Below are positions 51,876 to 62,509 of a stretch of 64,000 nt of DNA, one piece after another (position 1 is the stretch's first letter; every line of letters starts with the position of its first letter). The DNA lies in assembly GCA_030681515.1 (NCBI GenBank), contig JAUXSE010000022.1, forward strand, positions 1 to 64,000, written 5' to 3'. The position numbers and the translations under genes were made by a program. The notes beneath the pieces are model-generated. The model saw only the letters and a list, made by a program, of their open reading frames with translations. It was not told the DNA's origin and made no database searches. Source of the stretch: Geothrix sp. (lineage in GTDB: Bacteria > Acidobacteriota > Holophagae > Holophagales > Holophagaceae).

Positions 51876-53993
51876 ATGGAGTTTTCCTTGGGAATGCATG
51901 TCCCTTCGCTCCGCAACAGGGTGTACTCGGCTCTCCGTTCCGCCGTTGGACCCCGGTTCGATTCGCTTCTTCTCCAAGCCAGGGCCCTGGTGGCGCGGAC
52001 CTGCTCACGTCCAGGTGTCCGGCAAGCGGTGAAACTGGTGCTTGATGCGGGCTTGGCCGCACTTGCCTGGGCCGTAGCTTTCAGCCTCGTCCGGGTGCAC
52101 CTTCCTCACGCCACCTCGGTCCTGGCATGGGTCTGCTTCGCAATGGCGCTGAATCTCGCATTCCAGCACACCCGCCAGCACTACCGGCTCACGGGCATCG
52201 AGGAGGTCAGATCCCTCCTGTTGAGCATGGCGGTGATGATCGCGGTCGTCCTGGGGTCCTACCAGATAGGCAGCTACTTCAACCTGGTGGTCGAACATCC
52301 GAGGATCACGCTGGCGGCAGGCCTGCTCACCTCGCTGACCTGGCTCATGGTGCGCGCCGCTTCCGTGGCCTACTTCCAACGCCGGGTTTTCCAGGAATAC
52401 TCACAGCACCCCCGCGATGGGCATCCCTCGGCTTCTGAATCGGTCCACCGGACCCTCATCGTGGGCGCGGGTCAGGCCGGGGCCATGCTTTGCCATGAGC
52501 TCCGTGCGAACCCGCAACTGAACTGCCATGTGGTCGGATTCGTGGATGACTCGCTTGAAAAACAGGGGGTGAGGATCCAGGGTGTGCCGGTGTTGGGGCA
52601 TTCCAAGCTGCTTCCAACCTTCATCCAGGAGACCGCCGCGACCCAGGTGATCCTGGCCATGCCCAGCGCCCCCGGTTCCCGGATCCGGGAATTGGCATCC
52701 ATCCTTCAAGCCGAAGGTGTCCGGGTGAAGACCTTGCCCAGCATGTTGAGCGTTCTGGGGAGCAAGGACTGGAAGCCGGAGCTCCGCGACATCGCCATCG
52801 AGGACCTTCTCCGGCGGGAGCCGGTCAGCCTGGATCTGGGGTCCATCCGCCAGGAACTGGAGCACTCGGTGGTGCTCATCACGGGTGCCGGGGGATCCAT
52901 CGGCAGCGAGCTGGCGCGGCAGGTGGCGACTTTCCATCCATCCCACCTGGTCCTGCTTGGCCGCGGCGAGAACAGCCTCTGGGAAGTGGAACGGGAGATC
53001 CGCCGGCTGTTCCCCAGGCAGCGCCTCGAAGTGGAGCTCTGCGATATCCGGAATCCCGTCCGCCTTCAGCGGGTCTTTGAGGCCTGGCACCCCAAAACCG
53101 TGTTCCATGCCGCCGCGCACAAGCACGTCCCCTTCCTTGAAAGGCACCCGGAGGAGGCCGTTGAGAACAACATCTTCGGCACACTCAACATCCTCCAGGC
53201 GGCCCTGGCCATCGGAACCACCACATTCGTCAATGTGTCCACCGACAAGGCGGTGAACCCCACCAGCGTGCTGGGGATCACCAAGCGCATCGCGGAATTC
53301 CTCGTCTTGAGGGCCGCCGCCGACGCAAAGGCAGGATGCCGATACGTGAGTGTCCGGTTCGGGAATGTCCTGGGCAGCCGGGGAAGCGTGATTCCCCTGT
53401 TCCATGATCAGATCCGCCACGGGGGCCCCATCACGGTGACCCATCCCGACATGACCCGGTATTTCATGACCATTCCTGAAGCGAGCCAGCTGGTGCTCCA
53501 GGCGGGCATGTTGGGACAGACGGGCAAGGTCTTCGTGCTGGACATGGGAGAACCCGTCCGGATCGTGGACCTTGCCATGGACATGGCCCGTCTTTCCGGG
53601 CTCAGGCCAGGCTACGACATTGATATCCAGTTCACGGGTGTCCGCCCAGGCGAGAAGCTTTATGAAGAGCTCTTCACGGACCAGGAGCAGAGCCGGTCGG
53701 ATGTTCACGCGAAGGTCTTTGAAGCCATCCCGGACCAGCGGGATCGGGCGGTCCTGGACCGGGTGCTCCGATCCCTGAGGGACGCCTTGAACCTTCCCGA
53801 CGGATCCCGGCAGCAGGCCATCCTCCATGGCTTCCTGGAACTGGTGCCCACCTACCGTCCTTCCCTCGCGGGATTGGGGAAACACCTCGCGGAATCGCTT
53901 CCCGGCCCCGGGAGCAGACCACCGAAACCTGTGCCACCCCCCACGATCCGTGTCCGGCGGCCCTCCCTTCCGATCGCGCAACTGCAGTCCTGA
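51876..53993 (+). CDS. membrane-bound nucleotide-sugar 4,6-dehydratase (FlaA1/CapD/WbpM-like)
   Basis: A 705-residue protein (starting at ATG 51894 would give 699). It has about four N-terminal membrane helices (about 50-170), a CoA-binding-like/Rossmann domain (VGAGQAGAMLCHEL) and a C-terminal SDR dehydratase with TGAGGSIGSELARQ, HAAAHKHVPFLERHPEEA, STDKAVNPTSVLGITKR and RFGNVLGSRGSVIP. The TDK triad variant is typical of UDP-GlcNAc 4,6-dehydratases. It supplies modified sugars for capsule, O-antigen or exopolysaccharide and opens the polysaccharide region; both candidate start codons lack an ideal ribosome-binding site. Confidence 0.92.
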   Translation: MEFSLGMHVPSLRNRVYSALRSAVGPRFDSLLLQARALVARTCSRPGVRQAVKLVLDAGLAALAWAVAFSLVRVHLPHATSVLAWVCFAMALNLAFQHTRQHYRLTGIEEVRSLLLSMAVMIAVVLGSYQIGSYFNLVVEHPRITLAAGLLTSLTWLMVRAASVAYFQRRVFQEYSQHPRDGHPSASESVHRTLIVGAGQAGAMLCHELRANPQLNCHVVGFVDDSLEKQGVRIQGVPVLGHSKLLPTFIQETAATQVILAMPSAPGSRIRELASILQAEGVRVKTLPSMLSVLGSKDWKPELRDIAIEDLLRREPVSLDLGSIRQELEHSVVLITGAGGSIGSELARQVATFHPSHLVLLGRGENSLWEVEREIRRLFPRQRLEVELCDIRNPVRLQRVFEAWHPKTVFHAAAHKHVPFLERHPEEAVENNIFGTLNILQAALAIGTTTFVNVSTDKAVNPTSVLGITKRIAEFLVLRAAADAKAGCRYVSVRFGNVLGSRGSVIPLFHDQIRHGGPITVTHPDMTRYFMTIPEASQLVLQAGMLGQTGKVFVLDMGEPVRIVDLAMDMARLSGLRPGYDIDIQFTGVRPGEKLYEELFTDQEQSRSDVHAKVFEAIPDQRDRAVLDRVLRSLRDALNLPDGSRQQAILHGFLELVPTYRPSLAGLGKHLAESLPGPGSRPPKPVPPPTIRVRRPSLPIAQLQS

Positions 53994-54101
53994 CGGGGGA
54001 CCCTGGTGGACCCGTCATCACCTTTCGCGACGCAAGTCGGGCCCGTGGTCCGAAGCCTTTGAGGGAATTGCGGGAATGCAGGATGTCGAGTGATAGCATG
54101 A

Positions 54102-54166
54102 ACCACTAAGTGCCAATAGTGGTGCGGATTTCAGAAGCTTTTTTGACCCTTCATGATCCGGTCAAA
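54102..54166. promoter_or_regulatory. two inverted repeats upstream of the dehydrogenase-LytTR gene
   Basis: ACCACTA/TAGTGGT (7-bp arms, 8-bp spacer; 54102-54123) and TTTGACC/GGTCAAA (7-bp arms, 11-bp spacer; 54142-54166), 25-90 bases ahead of ATG 54191. They are candidate operators, possibly autoregulatory, although LytTR proteins usually bind direct repeats. Confidence 0.4.
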
Positions 54167-54190
54167 TTTGATTTCCCGTTTGGAGTGTTC

Positions 54191-55633
54191 ATGCGCATCG
54201 GCTTCCTGGGACTCGGAGACATGGGCACGCCCATGGCCCGGAATCTCCTGCGGCTGGGGCACACGGTCACCGTCTACAACCGCACTCCGGGGAAAGCCGA
54301 AGCTCTGATCGCTGATGGGGCGAGGGAATCCACCACCGTGGCCGAAGCCGTGATGGACGCGGAGGTGGCCATCACCATGCTCGCGGATAGCGTGGCCGTG
54401 GCGTCGGTGGTCTATGGTCCCGCGGGGCTGCTCCAGCACCTGCCTCCCAAAAGCATCCACCTCTGCATGAGCACCATCGAAGTCCAGGTCTCCGCCGAAC
54501 TGGCCTCGGCCCATGCCCAGGCTGACCAGGGCTATGTGGCGGCTCCCATCTTCGGGAGGGCCGGCGCTGCGGCCTCCCGCCGCATTTGGATCATGGCCGG
54601 AGGACCTGAACCCCTGGTGAACCGGTGCCTCCCCATCTTCGTCGCCCTGGGAAAGGGCCTTACGCGCGTGGGTCCCAAGGCCGCACTCGCCCACGCCCTC
54701 AAGCTGAGTGGCGTCGCGCTCTCGGAGGCCATGGAGAAGGCCCTCTCAGAGATTGTCGCTTCCTGCGAGAAGGCGGGAATGGCTCCTGCCGACTACCTCC
54801 GGTTTCTGAACACGGAGACCTTCAAGTTCCCGCTGGTGGATGCCTTCAGCGGCGTCATGATCCCGGGCTCCCTCGACCCGCCAGATCCCTCCCGGGATCT
54901 CGCGGCCAATGAATGGCTGATGGCCCTTGAGGCCTCGAATGGATTGGGCACGACCCACCCGGTGGCAGATCCGCCCAAGACCCGGATCCAAGCCGCCGGT
55001 ACCCGGGGCATGAGGGGAGAGGATCCGGCGGCCCTGTCCCGGGCCTCCCGCATGGAGACAGGATGGGTAGGGAGCCCTGCCCTGGGTCTGAAACCGGTTC
55101 CGCCCGCGCCACCCCCTTCGCCCCTGGACGGGCGCCACACGCCGGACCCGGAAAGGGCCGCTGATCCGAAGGGCACCCTGCTCAAACGGATGGTGAAGCC
55201 CCGGCCTGTTCCTCCCCCCGCGGAGGTGGCTGCACACGCCTCGCCCGATCAGAAGGCGGGCACCCCCACCGGCGGCATCGCCGGGCCCCCGCAGGTGGAC
55301 CCTTTTCACACCTTCACCGCCACGGATGGCGGATCCCAGGTGACGCTGCATCTGGACCAGACCAGCCATTTCGAGGCGATCAAAGGCCAGGTTTGGGCCT
55401 GGTCCCACGGAAAGCGCTACAAAACGCCCTGGGGCAACCTGGGCGAAGTGGAGTTGGCCTTCAGGCACATCCTGTTCCTGTTGATCCAGCGCCACATCCT
55501 GCTGCGGCCCGAGGCCACCCTCGACTTTCAGCCCACTTTTGGCGGAGGAGCGAAGGCGCGGGTTGGTGAAAACCTGGAACTCAGTGTCAGCCGGGCCGCC
55601 GCACCCCGACTCAAGGAGTTGCTGGGATTGTGA
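54191..55633 (+). CDS. hydroxyisobutyrate/6PGDH-type dehydrogenase fused to a LytTR-like DNA-binding domain
   Basis: A 480-residue protein in one frame. Residues 1-245 are a beta-hydroxyacid dehydrogenase: Rossmann GLGDMGTPMARNLL with VYNRTPGKA (NADP-type), AAPIFGRAGAAA, and the family lysine at Lys171. Residues 250-370 form a Pro-rich, low-complexity linker. Residues 373-480 look like LytTR: HLDQTSHFEAIKGQV, then HGKRYKTPWGNLGEVELAF, a central RHILLRP and the end LELSVSRAAAPRLKELLGL. LytTR domains bind DNA as transcription factors, usually behind a receiver. Here the dehydrogenase could sense NAD(P)H or a metabolite. ATG 54191 starts the GLG motif; the LytTR call is by pattern, not alignment. 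Confidence 0.78.
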   Translation: MRIGFLGLGDMGTPMARNLLRLGHTVTVYNRTPGKAEALIADGARESTTVAEAVMDAEVAITMLADSVAVASVVYGPAGLLQHLPPKSIHLCMSTIEVQVSAELASAHAQADQGYVAAPIFGRAGAAASRRIWIMAGGPEPLVNRCLPIFVALGKGLTRVGPKAALAHALKLSGVALSEAMEKALSEIVASCEKAGMAPADYLRFLNTETFKFPLVDAFSGVMIPGSLDPPDPSRDLAANEWLMALEASNGLGTTHPVADPPKTRIQAAGTRGMRGEDPAALSRASRMETGWVGSPALGLKPVPPAPPPSPLDGRHTPDPERAADPKGTLLKRMVKPRPVPPPAEVAAHASPDQKAGTPTGGIAGPPQVDPFHTFTATDGGSQVTLHLDQTSHFEAIKGQVWAWSHGKRYKTPWGNLGEVELAFRHILFLLIQRHILLRPEATLDFQPTFGGGAKARVGENLELSVSRAAAPRLKELLGL

Positions 55634-56028: not shown

Positions 56029-56133
56029 ATGCATGGTGAGCGAGTCCGGTTCCGGTTGCTCGAAGTACTGGCCCTTGGAACGATCTGCCCGCTGATCGGC
56101 TCCATGTGGGGTACCGCTAGCGATGCCAGGTGA
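56029..56133 (+). CDS. possible 34-residue small protein
   Basis: ATG 56029 with GGGGAGGG upstream encodes 34 residues including LLEVLALGTICPLIGSMWG, a hydrophobic stretch that could be a membrane or signal segment. The end overlaps the region ahead of the sensor gene. The strong ribosome-binding site is the only support; it may be a leader peptide or chance. Confidence 0.25.
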   Translation: MHGERVRFRLLEVLALGTICPLIGSMWGTASDAR

Positions 56134-56170
56134 CAACGTTGCGCACGACCTGATTCCCGGGAGTACTTTT

Positions 56171-57331
56171 GTGAACCCGAGCGATTCATTCCCCATCCAG
56201 TCCCAACCCGGCATCTCACAGCGGCATGGATTCACTGAATCCGAATCCGAAAGCATGTTGCGAGATTTGATTCTCCTTGCCGCGACCTTTACCGGCGCCA
56301 TCACGGCATTGGCGCTGCGTGACGAAACGGGCATCTGGTACCGGGATGACAGCGGTCTCAACGCTGAACAACAGGCGGCGCTTGAGGCAGCCATGTCCCA
56401 AGGCTTGACCCTTGAATCGAGCGGCCGCCTGCTGCAGGAGCATGGGATCCAGGTCGTCGAGGCCGTGCCACTGGTGGATCTCTACCACCGTACCATCGGC
56501 ACCTTGTGCGTGTTATCCCCTTCCCCGCTCACGCTATCGGCGAGCCATCGGGATGGCCTCGAACTGGTGGCCGGCCATATCCAGACACTCCTGGCAGCGG
56601 ATCGGCAACAGATGGAGCTGCGTGCCACACCTCGTGCTCCGTCCGCCGCCTCCTTTGTGCCAGGCCTCGTCCATGAGCTGGGAAGTTTCATTTTTGGGAT
56701 CTCGGCGAACCTCGATGCCTTCGAGGCGAGGTTCGCCGGGATGGATGATGTCAGCAAATACGGAGCCAGCATCCGGAGAAGCCTGGATCGAATGAGCGCC
56801 TTCATCCAGGAGTTGAGAGAATACGCGGATCCGCGGCGGTACTCATGGACCGCGCGCGAATTGGAACCCCTGCTGCGGGAGGCCATCGAACACCACAATC
56901 CCATGGCCGCGAAGAACCACGTAGATCTCCACCTCCATGTCGAGGGGCCCTTGCCTACGCTCAATGTGGACGAACTGAGTCTCCGGTCGGCCTTCATCCG
57001 CGTGATTGATCTTGTCTTGCGGCAGGAAGAAGCGGGCGGTCGCGTCGTGCTCCATGTCGAGAAGCGCCTCCTGGGTGAGAGGCTCGTGATCTGCGGACAC
57101 CTGGATGGTTCCAGCTTGAAACTCAAGGATGTGGATCCAGCCCGCCTATTCGAACCCTTCTACTTCCGGGCGTCCGGATTTGGCCGCCTTGCCCTGCCTG
57201 GGGCCAGGCGAGTCCTGGAATCCCACGGAGGGAACCTCACGGCAGGTCCCGGACCCGAAGGAGGCATGAGGATCAGCTTCATGTTGCCCGTGGTACTGAC
57301 CTATCCTTTGCAATCAGCCAGCCAATCTTGA
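56171..57331 (+). CDS. GAF-type sensor protein with a degenerate histidine-kinase core
   Basis: About 386 residues. An N-terminal GAF-like domain (about 20-150; GTLCVLSPSPLTLSASHRDGLELVAGHIQ) is followed by a dimerisation helix with His in FVPGLVHELGSFIFGISANLDAF and an HATPase-like end (RLFEPFYFRASGFGR, then VLESHGGNLTAGPGPEGG). The N-box Asn and the DxGxG loop are not recognisable, so ATP binding may be weak. It lies 7 bp before the NtrC-type regulator gene, its likely partner. Start: GTG 56171 with GGGAG seven bases upstream; ATG 56123 lacks such a site. It has no membrane segments. Confidence 0.75.
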   Translation: MNPSDSFPIQSQPGISQRHGFTESESESMLRDLILLAATFTGAITALALRDETGIWYRDDSGLNAEQQAALEAAMSQGLTLESSGRLLQEHGIQVVEAVPLVDLYHRTIGTLCVLSPSPLTLSASHRDGLELVAGHIQTLLAADRQQMELRATPRAPSAASFVPGLVHELGSFIFGISANLDAFEARFAGMDDVSKYGASIRRSLDRMSAFIQELREYADPRRYSWTARELEPLLREAIEHHNPMAAKNHVDLHLHVEGPLPTLNVDELSLRSAFIRVIDLVLRQEEAGGRVVLHVEKRLLGERLVICGHLDGSSLKLKDVDPARLFEPFYFRASGFGRLALPGARRVLESHGGNLTAGPGPEGGMRISFMLPVVLTYPLQSASQS

Positions 57332-57338
57332 GGGTTCC

Positions 57339-58694
57339 ATGGCGAAAGCGAAGGTCCTGGTGGTTGATGATGATGAGACGATCCGCTTTGCGATAAGGGA
57401 TTTCCTGGAACTCCACGGCTTCCTCGTGGATGAAGCGGAGACGTGCGCCGAGGCGGAAATCAGATTTCGCGCGGATGTGTTCGATGCCGTCACCCTGGAC
57501 TACTCCCTGCCGGATGGGAACGCCATGGATCTGCTTCCAAGGCTGAAAGCCCTCGATGCCGGGGTACCGATCATTCTCCTCACCGCCTATGCCAGCATCG
57601 AACTCGCCGTGCGGGCCATTCAACTTGGAGCCGAACATTTTCTGGTGAAGCCCCTGGATCTTCCAGCCCTCCTGATGGTGCTGGAGCGGGCACTGGAAAA
57701 CCAGCGGAACCGCCGAAAACAGGTGGCCCGCGATTCCATCGAACAACCCCAGCGAGCCGTGAATCCCTTCATCGGACAAAGCGCCGCCATCCAGAAGCTG
57801 GCGGAGCAGTCGCGGCAGGCCGCTGCGACCGAAAGCCCCGTACTCATCCAGGGCGAGACCGGCACGGGCAAAAGCGAATTGGCCCGATGGATTCACCGCT
57901 TCAGTTCGAGGGCTTCCGAGCCCATGCTGGAACTCAATTGCGGTGGATTCACCAAGGATCTCCTGGAAACCGAACTTTTCGGACACGAAAAAGGCGCCTT
58001 CACGGGTGCGATCACAACCAAAGTCGGCCTTCTGGAGGCAGCCCATCACGGTACGGTCTTTCTGGATGAAATCGGTGACATTGATCTGCAGATCCAGCCA
58101 AGAATCCTCAAGGCCTTGGAAGAAAAACGGTTCCGCCGCCTAGGCGGAGTCCAGGACCGGAAAGTGGATTTCCGTCTGATCGCCGCCACCCACCAGAACC
58201 TGGACCGGCTCGTGCAGGACCAGCTCTTCCGGTCTGATCTTTTCTATCGCATAAGCGTCATCCAGATCTCCGTACCCCCACTGCGCGAGCGCGCAGAGGA
58301 TATCCCCGACTTCGCCCAGCGCCTCCTGGACCGCCTTACCAGCGAGTGTGGGCGGGAGCCAATGAAGCTCACCCAGAGTGGACTGATGAAGCTGCAAAAG
58401 CATTTGTGGCCCGGCAACATCCGCGAGCTGCGGAATGTCCTGGAACGGGCCTTGATGGGAGCCAGCTCCTCCGAGATCCATGCGCTGGATCTGGATTTCG
58501 CGTCCAGCCCCCAAGCCCGGATCCAGGAAGGGCTTCCTAAAATGACGTTAAAGGAACTGGAGCGGCACTATATTATCCAGATCCTTCATGAGGAGGGAGG
58601 CCAGGTGGATCGTGCCGCCAAACGGCTCGATATCCCTCGCAGTACGCTCTATCAAAAGCTCAAAACCTTTGGTCCCGAATTGTCCAGATCCTAG
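57339..58694 (+). CDS. NtrC-family sigma-54-dependent response regulator
   Basis: A 451-residue regulator: receiver (residues 1-120, phospho-acceptor Asp54 in TLDYSLPDG, Lys in FLVKPLD), AAA+ domain (about 140-375) with Walker A GETGTGKSELA, the sigma-54 contact loop GAFTGA, Walker B VFLDEIGD and the arginine-finger region LFYRISVIQISVPPLRER. The C-terminal Fis-type helix-turn-helix reads QVDRAAKRLDIPRSTLYQKLK. It activates RpoN-dependent promoters, and the sigma-54 promoter at 58800 drives the gene immediately downstream. It is paired with the sensor protein at 56171. Confidence 0.95.
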   Translation: MAKAKVLVVDDDETIRFAIRDFLELHGFLVDEAETCAEAEIRFRADVFDAVTLDYSLPDGNAMDLLPRLKALDAGVPIILLTAYASIELAVRAIQLGAEHFLVKPLDLPALLMVLERALENQRNRRKQVARDSIEQPQRAVNPFIGQSAAIQKLAEQSRQAAATESPVLIQGETGTGKSELARWIHRFSSRASEPMLELNCGGFTKDLLETELFGHEKGAFTGAITTKVGLLEAAHHGTVFLDEIGDIDLQIQPRILKALEEKRFRRLGGVQDRKVDFRLIAATHQNLDRLVQDQLFRSDLFYRISVIQISVPPLRERAEDIPDFAQRLLDRLTSECGREPMKLTQSGLMKLQKHLWPGNIRELRNVLERALMGASSSEIHALDLDFASSPQARIQEGLPKMTLKELERHYIIQILHEEGGQVDRAAKRLDIPRSTLYQKLKTFGPELSRS

Positions 58695-58838: not shown

Positions 58839-61214
58839 ATGCGAACGGGAAGTTGCCTTGCCACACTTCAGGGAATGGCCATTGTTGGAGTGCTGATCCA
58901 GTTCGCGTGTGGTGGAAGCGCCAGTGCCAATGGTGGAGGCACGGTGGGTGTGACTCCGGTGAGCCCACTGACCGTAACGCTCACGACCGCCCCCACCGAA
59001 GTCACCTCCGGTGGCACCTTATCCTTCACGGTTCAGGTCGTGGGTTCCACAAACACAGCCGTGACCTGGTCGGTGGATAGCATCCAGAACGGGAATGGCA
59101 CTGTTGGCACAATTTCCGGCACCGGGAACACCGTCACTTACACGGCCCCCGTGGGCGCAAGTAGCCATGTGGTGGCTGCCACCAGCGTTTCGGATCTGAC
59201 CAAGTCGGCCAGCGCGAATGTGTCCGTCCGCCTTTCCTCCACAATCTCATCGGTGACGGTGAGCCCCACATCCTTGACCCAGGTCGTGGGCACCCAGAGG
59301 CAGTTCACCGCGACGGTCACGGGCACGGGAAGCTACAACCCAGAGACAACCTGGTCCGCTCTGCGGGGCAGCATCTCCAGCACCGGCCTCTACACCGCTC
59401 CATCCACCAGCGGCAGTGACGTGGTGACCGCCAAGAGCCTGCAGGACCCCACCAAGGCCGCCGCCACCAGCGTCACCGTTTCCGCGGCCGTTTCCTCCAC
59501 CATCAGCTCCGTGGCCGTGAGTCCCACATCCTCGACCCAGAATGTGGGCACTCAGAAACAGTTCACCGCGACGGTCACGGGCACGGGAAGCTACAACCCA
59601 GGGGTCAGCTGGTCCGCCCAGCGGGGCAGCATCACCAGTGCCGGCCTCTACACCGCTCCATCCACGAGCGGCACGGACGTGGTGACCGCCGCGAGCCAGC
59701 AGGACGCCAGCAAGGCCGCCACCGCCAGCATCGTGGTCAGCAGCACTGCCACGGTCACCCTCGGACCACTGGCAGCCTTCCCCGGATGTGAAGGCATGGG
59801 AAGTGGAGCCACGGGAGGCCGCGGCGGGGTCGTCTACACCGTGAACACCCTCGAAGACACCACCAATCCTGGGGCCGTGCCACAGAATGGACCGAACGGG
59901 CCCACCTGCTCGCTGCGCGACGCCATGCTGAAGAGTGGACCACGGACCATCGTTTTCTCGGTCGGCGGGACCATCACGCTCCACTCGACCCTATGGCCAG
60001 TGCCTCCCGGTTTGACCATCGCCGGGCACACCGCGCCAGGCGGAGGCATCCAGATCAAGGGGGATGGCAGTTTCGGCAACGGTGGAAGCATGATCTGGAT
60101 CAACGGAAACAGCATCGTCCGATACCTGAGGATCCGCCCCGGCAATGCTCCCGTGAACGCCAGCTATCAAGGCCTCACCGGATTGGCGGTGTCCATGGAC
60201 ACCACGGATGATGTGGTGCTCGATCACAACTCATTCGAATGGGATGGGAACAAGGCCGTGGCATGGTGGTCGGAAAATGGGGTCCGTCGCGGCACCTTCT
60301 CCTGGAATCTCGTGGCGGAATGTCTCGCGCCGCACAGCACGGGGATGCTGATCGGCGGGTACAACATGGGCCAGGCCAATATGGATCAATCCAGCTGGGA
60401 CGGGCACCACAACGTGCTCGCCACCATTGACCACCGTCTTCCCTATACAAACCTCAAATACGGGCGCTGGATCAACAACTTCATCTTCGGCTACAACTAC
60501 GCCATGCTGGTTCGCGGTGGCACACAGTTCGACATCATCGGCAATGTCTACGATGGGCTGACGTCCAGACTCCCGGCCCTCGACACGAAGAACGAGGTCC
60601 GTTGGGCCGATACCGTCGAACACAACGAAAACAACATTCTCCCGAGTGGCACCGCCCAGATTTTCATGAGCAACAATTTCGGCCCCAGCAACCCCCAGGG
60701 GACATCCGACGACTTCACCACCATGCTCCGGATCGCCTCCAGCGAGAATAGCCAGCTCGACGACAATGTTGTGGATTTCAAGTACAAGGCCCTCGGACCG
60801 ACCATACCGGCTTCCCTCAACGCATGGCCCATCACCATCTCGACCCTGACTTCGGCGAACGACCTGAAGGCCATCCTGACCCCGGCCGCTGGCGCCTACC
60901 GCCGGCTCGCTCCGGACGGTTCCTGGGTCGCGAACCGGGATCCAGTGGATGCCCGGGTCATAGGCTACATCCTGAATCCCGCCACCAGCCCGACAGGATA
61001 TGTGTACACCGCCGGACCTTATCCGGTTCTGTCCGCCGGCACGGCTGCTGTAGACACCGATGGGGACGGCATGCCTGACATCTGGGAGGATGCCCACGGC
61101 CTCAACAAGGCGGATCCATTGGATCGCAACATCGCCAGGGCGAACGCCCGTGGGTATACGAACCTTGAGCTGTATCTCTCAGGTCTGTTTCCCAACGGCA
61201 CTCCCTTGCCGTGA
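58839..61214 (+). CDS. secreted Big-domain protein with a pectate-lyase-like beta-helix
   Basis: A 791-residue exported protein. The signal region is MAIVGVLIQFACGG, possibly a lipoprotein site at Cys, though the lipobox is imperfect. Residues about 40-305 hold three Big-type immunoglobulin-like domains, the last two nearly identical. A pectate-lyase-like beta-helix follows ([39 protein letters not shown]). The end has DTDGDGMPDIWEDAHGLNKADPLD, a calcium-binding type 3-like repeat. The likely target is a polysaccharide, perhaps made by this locus. It is driven by the sigma-54 promoter at 58800; GGAGG precedes ATG 58839. Confidence 0.88.
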   Translation: MRTGSCLATLQGMAIVGVLIQFACGGSASANGGGTVGVTPVSPLTVTLTTAPTEVTSGGTLSFTVQVVGSTNTAVTWSVDSIQNGNGTVGTISGTGNTVTYTAPVGASSHVVAATSVSDLTKSASANVSVRLSSTISSVTVSPTSLTQVVGTQRQFTATVTGTGSYNPETTWSALRGSISSTGLYTAPSTSGSDVVTAKSLQDPTKAAATSVTVSAAVSSTISSVAVSPTSSTQNVGTQKQFTATVTGTGSYNPGVSWSAQRGSITSAGLYTAPSTSGTDVVTAASQQDASKAATASIVVSSTATVTLGPLAAFPGCEGMGSGATGGRGGVVYTVNTLEDTTNPGAVPQNGPNGPTCSLRDAMLKSGPRTIVFSVGGTITLHSTLWPVPPGLTIAGHTAPGGGIQIKGDGSFGNGGSMIWINGNSIVRYLRIRPGNAPVNASYQGLTGLAVSMDTTDDVVLDHNSFEWDGNKAVAWWSENGVRRGTFSWNLVAECLAPHSTGMLIGGYNMGQANMDQSSWDGHHNVLATIDHRLPYTNLKYGRWINNFIFGYNYAMLVRGGTQFDIIGNVYDGLTSRLPALDTKNEVRWADTVEHNENNILPSGTAQIFMSNNFGPSNPQGTSDDFTTMLRIASSENSQLDDNVVDFKYKALGPTIPASLNAWPITISTLTSANDLKAILTPAAGAYRRLAPDGSWVANRDPVDARVIGYILNPATSPTGYVYTAGPYPVLSAGTAAVDTDGDGMPDIWEDAHGLNKADPLDRNIARANARGYTNLELYLSGLFPNGTPLP
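59235..59750 (+). repeat. tandem 258-bp repeat encoding two Big domains
   Basis: Two adjacent units start at 59235 and 59493 and share long identical blocks, such as GACGGTCACGGGCACGGG and CTCCATCCAC. The unit is 258 bp (86 codons), in frame. High identity suggests recent duplication or gene conversion; copy number may vary between strains. Confidence 0.85.
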
Positions 61215-61249: not shown

Positions 61250-62509
61250 CTACGGGCAGGTGTCGGGGTGGTTGTTCCTCAGTTTGTTCGGACCGATCGT
61301 GTTGGCACCTGACGGGTAGGCATTCCGTATGCCACATGCCGCGCTATTCCGTACGGTATTGCCAGTGAGGATGTTGCCGGCCGTATCGTACAGGAGAATG
61401 CCGTACCCGATGCTTCCGGGGGGAGGGGCCGCCCTGGTTCCTGTCACCGTGTTTCCCGTGAGTAAGATGCTGTTGGCCTGGTTCCTCAGGTAGATTCCAT
61501 TCCCGATGTTGTCTGTGACCGTGTTGTTGCTGATCTGAAGGCCGCTGCAATTGCTGACTCCGATCCCGGAGGCCCCGTGATGCCGGCCATTGCCCAGGGC
61601 CTTGTTGCCATCCACCACCACATCGGTCACGAAGGCCCTCCCCCTGTTCGCGATCGCGGGCCCGATCGCGAGACCATCCGTCGCGTTTGAAGCGAATGTG
61701 CATCCCGTGAATCGGACATTGCACACGGTTTGCCCGATATTGGGCTCGATGGCGGTTCCGGCCCCGCAGACAAAAACGCCGTTCTCCATGAAACCCGTCG
61801 TGTTCTTGAACGTGCAGCTTTCCACCACCAGGCCATCAACACTGGTCACAGACATTCCCTGACGGCGATTCCCATCCGCCACAACCCTGCACAGGGTCAC
61901 ATCCCAGGACGCCTCGCCAATGTAGAACCCGTCCAGCCAGCAATCCTTCGAGGTCAGGCCTTGCACGACCACGTGCCGGGATCTCGCCACCTTCAGGCCA
62001 ATTCCCCCTTCCCGGGTATCCAGAATGCTGTTGTTGTGGCGGTTGCCAATGATTGTGCCGCCAAGAATTTGGACGTTTTGAACGCCACCAACGAGCAGTA
62101 CGACATAGTTGGATGTGGATGTGGGAAGGGCCTGAAGGACCGCTCCGGGTTCGAATCGCAGCGTCATGTCACTCCTGAGGCGGATTCCGGCATGGGTACT
62201 GGCCACTGGATCCACCAGGTAGATCCCAGCCGGGATGACGACCGAGCCGCCGGTGCCGGCCACAGCATTGACGGCCTTCTGGATGGCGGACGTATCATCG
62301 GTGACGCCGTCCCCCCTGGCTCCAAACATGGCATCCTTCACATTCACCATGAAGTCTGACGATGGCGCAGGCGCGCAGTGGGTCACGGCCGGAGGCCTTG
62401 CATCGGTGGAGGCAGGATAGCCATCCCCATTCCCAGAAGCCTGGCAAAGGGTTCCATACGCCAGAATTGCAATTCGAAGCAGTCTGGAGCCGCCTGGACC
62501 TGCAAGCAT
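61250..62509 (-). CDS. secreted right-handed beta-helix (pectate-lyase-3-like) protein
   Basis: A 419-residue protein with an N-terminal hydrophobic signal (RLLRIAILAYGTLCQASG; Cys may be a lipid site but the lipobox is imperfect). The body starts with the typical pectate-lyase-3 sequence VKDAMFGARGDGVTDDTSAIQKAV and then has parallel beta-helix coils with many Asn/Gly ladders (LQISNNTVTDNIGNGIYLRNQANSILLTGNTV). ATG 62509 has GGGAG upstream. It is convergent with the lyase-like gene at 58839, with 35 bp between stops. Probably acts on extracellular polysaccharide or forms a surface structure; catalytic residues could not be assigned. Confidence 0.85.
   Translation of the reverse strand: MLAGPGGSRLLRIAILAYGTLCQASGNGDGYPASTDARPPAVTHCAPAPSSDFMVNVKDAMFGARGDGVTDDTSAIQKAVNAVAGTGGSVVIPAGIYLVDPVASTHAGIRLRSDMTLRFEPGAVLQALPTSTSNYVVLLVGGVQNVQILGGTIIGNRHNNSILDTREGGIGLKVARSRHVVVQGLTSKDCWLDGFYIGEASWDVTLCRVVADGNRRQGMSVTSVDGLVVESCTFKNTTGFMENGVFVCGAGTAIEPNIGQTVCNVRFTGCTFASNATDGLAIGPAIANRGRAFVTDVVVDGNKALGNGRHHGASGIGVSNCSGLQISNNTVTDNIGNGIYLRNQANSILLTGNTVTGTRAAPPPGSIGYGILLYDTAGNILTGNTVRNSAACGIRNAYPSGANTIGPNKLRNNHPDTCP

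Follow-up and report, generated by a model that had tools for sequence, protein, structure and literature searches.

A HIBADH-type dehydrogenase fused to a LytTR domain in Holophagaceae, a candidate one-component regulator

Introduction

Among the one-component LytTR regulators, RcoM consists of a heme sensor joined to a LytTR domain and CoxC of an MHYT domain joined to a LytTR domain (PMC11347149). The most conserved motif of the LytTR domain, FhRhHRS, includes the residues Arg198, Asn201 and Ser202 through which AgrA contacts DNA (PMC4227749), and Arg233 of AgrA is a further DNA contact (PMC4064291). In the literature that we found, a LytTR domain takes its input from a receiver, from a gas sensor of the heme or MHYT type, or from a separate partner in the membrane. 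A dehydrogenase domain is coupled to DNA-binding or chromatin-binding parts in NPAC/GLYR1, where it is an inert tetrameric scaffold (PMC13144531). In the plant protein AtGLYR1, Lys170 and Asn174 are catalytic and Asp239 binds the substrate (PMC5399074). No fusion of a dehydrogenase to a LytTR domain, and no paper linking LytTR and Geothrix, was found in the open literature searched, in which most subscription journals are not covered.

The gene analysed here lies in a stretch of 64,000 nucleotides (the window) at the start of contig JAUXSE010000022.1 of a Geothrix sp. genome, which is assembled to 3.2 Mb in 66 contigs. An earlier note made from the sequence had described a single frame in which a dehydrogenase is followed by a proline-rich linker and a LytTR domain.

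Results

Gene structure and domain layout

The frame at 54191–55633 on the forward strand is indeed open: it starts with ATG, encodes 480 residues and contains all of the motifs that had been quoted for it. Its parts are as follows.

54191–55633, + strand: whole fusion gene, 480 amino acids plus stop codon; open frame with an ATG start; full-length orthologues in the genus are ∼45–64% identical
54191–54679, + strand: Rossmann NAD(P)-binding domain, residues 1–163, with GLGDMG and YNRT; from Pfam NAD_binding_2, AlphaFold2 pLDDT and dN/dS
54680–55060, + strand: C-terminal half of the dehydrogenase, residues 164–290; Lys171 present, Val in place of Asn175, Asn-Glu in place of Lys240-Asp241
55061–55306, + strand: Pro/Ala-rich disordered linker, residues 291–372; from low pLDDT, composition and fast evolution
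55307–55630, + strand: LytTR domain, residues 373–480; from Pfam LytTR, the AlphaFold2 fold and PDB matches
54182–54185, + strand: likely ribosome-binding site GGAG just 5′ of the ATG, read from the upstream sequence

A similar GGAG is present at the equivalent position in several fusion orthologues of which the upstream sequences were read. Translation from an alternative upstream GTG at 54110 would give a protein of 507 amino acids; the homologues all begin at the MRI/VRI position.

The AlphaFold2 model of the full protein consists of two folded parts and the linker. In the Rossmann part the pLDDT exceeds 90 in each block of ten residues. The C-terminal half of the dehydrogenase is modelled as helical, with low pLDDT at residues 209–242, and pLDDT drops below 50 at residues 291–370. 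The linker, in which 21 of the 82 residues are proline, is shorter than the 120 residues originally claimed. That dehydrogenase and LytTR parts are joined in one protein is supported by the Pfam matches, the predicted fold and the conserved orthologues. A receiver domain is absent from the Pfam matches of the window protein and of the orthologues tested. Because the fusion has neither a receiver nor a membrane domain, its architecture follows the plan of a one-component regulator, with the unusual input domain that the earlier note had pointed out.

The C-terminal LytTR domain

The Pfam LytTR profile is matched over nearly its whole length by residues 386–478, weakly when the whole protein is searched (E = 0.04, 14.5 bits). 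The domain alone gives E = 0.0015 and 19.1 bits against PF04397, which is below the curated cutoff of 22.6, and this score would be unsafe if taken alone. Four fusion orthologues (G004, G015, G019 and G419) exceed the cutoff with 23.3–25.4 bits, and that of G063 reaches 20.8. PF04397 is matched by all 24 of the aligned relatives with E values up to 0.01, the best being 4e-11, and the C-terminus of the fusion shares 38% identity with a REC-LytTR regulator of this genome.

The AlphaFold2 model of residues 373–480 has a mean pLDDT of 96.7. Its top match in the PDB is entry 3d6w (Z = 14.9, r.m.s.d. 2.2, 107 aligned), which the sequence profile of the domain also retrieves at 1e-5. AgrA (Z ∼12.5, r.m.s.d. 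∼2.5, 96 aligned) and ComE (Z = 11.5, r.m.s.d. 4.0, 104 aligned) match as well. The 13 PDB chains with Z of at least 5 are LytTR only, and the next structure has Z = 4.8. By transitivity through its relatives and by its predicted fold, residues 373–480 are thus a LytTR domain. The assignment made in the earlier note is borne out by the predicted LytTR beta fold and by the Pfam matches of the relatives, the Pfam score being below the cutoff in the window protein and above it in four orthologues. Its description of a full LytTR pattern goes too far, as the FhRhHRS motif reads FLLIQRH in the window protein.

The genus has many REC-LytTR regulators (L059, L061, L002 and other loci) that share the signature VWAW, RIQRHLLLRPEAV and SRxxTPxLKExLGL. 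The REC-LytTR regulator of the present genome itself exceeds the Pfam LytTR cutoff only by a small margin, and LytTR counts in Holophagaceae may therefore be underestimated.

DNA-binding surface and upstream region

The position of AgrA Arg198 is occupied by Leu in the window protein and in three of the four aligned fusion orthologues. At the position of AgrA Asn201 the window protein has Arg, as do the same-genus paralogues; the response regulators of the genus read, for example, LLRIQRH or LLRIHRH at this motif. AgrA Arg233 corresponds by alignment to Arg468, and an arginine is retained here in the aligned fusions. Both Arg434 and Arg468 remain in the LytTR domain of the window protein. With the Arg198 position lost and the next arginine and that at the Arg233 position kept, DNA binding with an altered specificity is plausible from the alignment.

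The loss of the Arg198 equivalent to Leu would also fit a LytTR-like domain that does not bind DNA specifically and serves, for example, in protein–protein contact, in which case the fusion would not be a transcription regulator. The net charge of the aligned fusion LytTR domains, which is just −1 to +2, and the Pfam score of the window protein below the cutoff point in the same direction. Against this stand a fold that is intact at high confidence, purifying selection on the domain and the arginine retained at the Arg233 position, and we consider such a role improbable.

No recognisable LytTR-type repeat operator (paired 9 bp direct repeats) is present upstream at 53990–54200, and no sigma-70 promoter-like site was found upstream of the window gene. 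In five orthologues a GGTATCTTGA-like element is located 29–33 nt 5′ of the start codon of the fusion (L035 200, L037 7346, L038 8582, L040 8241 and L068 8487), and GGTATCTTGA may be a conserved promoter element. It is missing upstream of the window gene and shows no clear enrichment in the window.

The dehydrogenase domain and its catalytic residues

Residues 2–159 match Pfam NAD_binding_2 with E = 2.5e-36 and contain the motifs GLGDMG and NRT. The best NCBIfam matches are to 2-hydroxy-3-oxopropionate reductase and its relatives, all of them scoring so far under the equivalog cutoffs that the substrate cannot be named. NAD_binding_11 (PF14833) is undetected by Pfam in the window protein. Five of the six same-genus orthologues tested give 20.1–34.7 bits for this domain, the fusion of G419 gives 46.6 and unfused relatives give about 80.

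Lys171, Asn175 and the Lys-Asp pair (240–241) are conserved throughout the 23 unfused relatives in the comparison. Among the 11 fusions the GxGxxG motif is invariant, Lys171 is present in ten (it is Arg in G152) and Asn175 in four. The Lys240-Asp241 pair is retained in two, both from the sister genus, and is lost in all nine fusions of the genus. The fusion of G419 keeps all of the residues compared, and the window protein has Lys171, with Val for Asn175 and Asn-Glu for the pair. The HIBADH/6PGDH-type identity put forward in the earlier note therefore stands as far as NAD_binding_2, GLGDMG and Lys171 are concerned, while Asn175 and Lys-Asp are replaced. This pattern suggests a cofactor-binding fold that is kept while normal catalysis is being lost, as might be expected of an enzyme that is becoming an input domain. 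Since Lys171 is kept in ten of the 11 fusions and G419 has all of the compared residues, the enzyme may not be dead.

A bifunctional protein, in which the dehydrogenase still turns over a hydroxyacid or semialdehyde and genes are regulated in response to this turnover, would account for the near-constant Lys171, for Asn175 in four of 11 fusions, for the complete set in G419 (Lys171, Asn175 and Lys-Asp) and for the strong purifying selection across the dehydrogenase between G019 and G028. It is less easily reconciled with the loss of Lys-Asp in nine of nine same-genus fusions, with the loss of Asn175 in the window protein and others, and with an NAD_binding_11 domain that escapes detection in the window protein and scores low in the orthologues, compared with ∼80 bits in the unfused proteins. 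We regard this alternative as unlikely.

NPAC/GLYR1 is one of the best matches of the dehydrogenase both in sequence and in fold, and by fold it ranks second. Its inert tetrameric dehydrogenase (PMC13144531) and the loss of catalytic residues in the fusions suggest another arrangement, in which NAD(P) is bound constitutively and the domain only scaffolds the LytTR domains. Control would then come from the expression level or from a partner, for example the OmpR-type regulator that is encoded directly downstream of the fusion in G031, G004, G015 and G063 (by Pfam for the G031 and G015 copies). A pure scaffold has no need of Lys171, which is nevertheless found in ten of the 11 fusions and is Met in NPAC. 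We regard a purely structural role as rather unlikely, though less so than bifunctionality.

Relaxation of the C-terminal half was also considered. The ratio of C-terminal half to Rossmann distances is 1.65 (1.31–2.12) in the same-genus fusions and 0.64 (0.45–0.91) in the unfused proteins of the genus. In unfused relatives across the phylum it is 1.34 (1.07–1.67); the fusion ratios overlap with these and the hypothesis was set aside.

Distribution, origin and selection

With a threshold of E up to 1e-45, the fusion is found in nine of 47 genomes of the genus and an unfused relative in 14; 24 have neither, and no genome matched both. Full-length single-frame fusions are encoded in the present genome (G000) and in G033, G031, G004, G019, G015, G028 and G063. 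In G013 only the dehydrogenase part is seen, running to the end of the contig. In the sister genus the fusion is intact in G419, and in G152 the halves lie in adjoining frames. The same two-domain architecture, which the earlier note had suggested looking for in related genomes, thus occurs in the nine genomes of the genus and in two of the sister genus. Among 396 genomes of the phylum, with the best four candidates per genome scored, the fusion is confined to Holophagaceae. A scan of genome contigs returned two distant unfused relatives only.

In the dehydrogenase tree the 11 fusions form one clade (support 100/99) with unfused genes of the same genus as its sister, and in the LytTR tree ten fusion domains likewise form one clade (99/94). 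The simplest reading of these trees is that the fusion arose once, long ago, and was then inherited and in some lineages lost. For the close pair G019/G028, dN/dS is 0.033 in the Rossmann part, 0.052 in the C-terminal half of the dehydrogenase, 0.375 in the linker and 0.133 in the LytTR domain. The low values at both ends compared with the linker indicate that both domains are maintained as protein while the linker drifts.

These data bear on the possibility that an error of sequencing or assembly has merged two genes, for which the domains of G152, being in different frames, could be cited. Full-length single-frame fusions from separate assemblies, in eight genomes of the genus including the present one and in G419, together with congruent trees that each place the fusions in a single clade and a non-random dN/dS pattern, refute this explanation almost beyond doubt.

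The frame-shift of G152 lies inside a long Pro/Ala repeat linker (L070 7438–9105, − strand; G152:C1 near 3549400–3551104). It may reflect decay, an error in sequencing or a slippery repeat through which the LytTR domain could be turned on or off.

Genomic neighbourhood

The fusion gene is flanked in the window, and followed in other genomes of the genus, by these genes.

51894–53993, + strand: NDP-sugar dehydratase/epimerase (Polysacc_synt_2, Pfam E = 5e-113) of polysaccharide synthesis, the 5′ neighbour of the fusion
56123–58694, + strand: histidine-kinase-like protein (HATPase_c) and NtrC-type sigma-54 response regulator, by Pfam, 3′ of the fusion
L035 1887–2579 and 2699–4297, also L039, L036 and L068: OmpR-type regulator and hydroxylase

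A Wzz/Wzc-like gene follows on the same contig at 64998–67151, beyond the window. In G033, G019 and G028 the fusion adjoins genes for a glycosyltransferase, an epimerase, a UDP-sugar dehydrogenase, a DegT aminotransferase and a sugar transferase, and in G004, G013 and G015 it is near Wzc-like and polysaccharide-export genes. Polysaccharide genes therefore adjoin the fusion in seven of the nine loci of the genus, the window included. Next to the fusion of G063 are a PilZ-like gene and the genes of the kinase and the NtrC-type regulator. In G031 the downstream flank alone is assembled and contains an OmpR-type regulator and a hydroxylase. The neighbours of the fusions in G419 and G152 are unrelated to polysaccharide.

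The histidine-kinase-like and NtrC-type pair is also found near the fusion in G033, G019, G028 and G063. Kinase and Wzz-like genes are present in genomes without the fusion too, so that their co-occurrence lends no specific support and the link is positional and not exclusive. The unfused relatives occupy a different conserved neighbourhood, near a gene that resembles ruvX/yqgF.

Several further features of these loci were observed. HATPase_c is the sole Pfam match of the histidine-kinase-like protein of the window (56123–57331). Beside the polysaccharide locus the window encodes a large protein with an Ig-like match (58875–61214) and a right-handed beta-helix protein of the pectate-lyase type (61250–62350), and relatives of both recur at orthologous fusion loci. 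The fusion is followed directly, in several of the genus genomes, by genes for a response regulator of the OmpR type and a biopterin-dependent aromatic amino acid hydroxylase.

Discussion

On balance we lean, by a narrow measure, towards the fusion being a cytoplasmic one-component transcription regulator in which the dehydrogenase is a ligand-responsive input and oligomerisation domain. We infer cofactor binding, oligomerisation, DNA binding, ligand response and the targets of the fusion. The HIBADH-type domain, its catalysis partly lost and its NAD(P)-binding Rossmann part kept, would serve as the input and oligomerisation module, and the flexible Pro-rich linker would tether it to a LytTR domain that reads direct repeats in DNA. 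Binding of NAD(P)(H), or of a small carboxylate at the former active site, would alter the dimer or tetramer state and thereby how paired LytTR domains are positioned on the DNA. The likely targets in the genus would be the neighbouring polysaccharide genes. More specifically, and as a tentative proposal to which we give clearly less credence, the protein could sense NAD(P)H or a hydroxyacid and link redox state to polysaccharide production, making it in its plan a bacterial counterpart of NPAC/GLYR1 and CtBP.

If a dehydrogenase does act as the input to a LytTR domain, this would represent a route from enzyme to sensor. Its intermediates are preserved as the intact enzyme in the unfused relatives, as a fusion with the compared active-site residues in G419 and as the eroded fusion of the genus. 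The question of how an enzyme becomes a sensor can therefore be addressed with natural orthologues in place of engineered mutants. A dehydrogenase input would, in addition, suggest that the redox or metabolite state of the cell is linked directly to surface polysaccharide genes in Acidobacteriota.

Comparison with known systems

Unfused oxidoreductases of the HIBADH-like type from the genus, L041 and L043 among them, and PDB entry 4gbj are 44–48% identical to the dehydrogenase of the fusion and share its APxFGR motif. The genus proteins differ from it in having neither linker nor LytTR domain, in keeping Lys171, Asn175 and Lys-Asp, and in their different conserved locus. With the REC-LytTR regulators, such as AgrA, AlgR, ComE and same-genus paralogues including L002, the fusion has the LytTR fold in common, and the homology to the same-genus paralogues is clear in sequence. 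Unlike them, it has no receiver, an altered FhRhHRS motif and a LytTR clade of its own.

RcoM and CoxC resemble the fusion in combining an N-terminal sensor with a C-terminal LytTR domain and no receiver, and CoxC also has a disordered linker (PMC11347149). They differ in that their input domains sense gas, through heme or a membrane MHYT domain, whereas the fusion has a soluble HIBADH-family dehydrogenase of the NAD(P)-binding type in this place. Human NPAC/GLYR1 (PDB entry 2uyy) in turn couples a HIBADH-type domain with eroded catalytic residues to DNA-binding or chromatin-binding parts. These are an N-terminal PWWP domain and an AT-hook, and the catalytic lysine is lost, whereas the fusion has a C-terminal LytTR domain and mostly keeps Lys171: the plan is the same and the DNA-binding part is different. 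By analogy, RcoM and CoxC would be the closest working analogues for the output plan of the fusion and NPAC/GLYR1 for its input plan.
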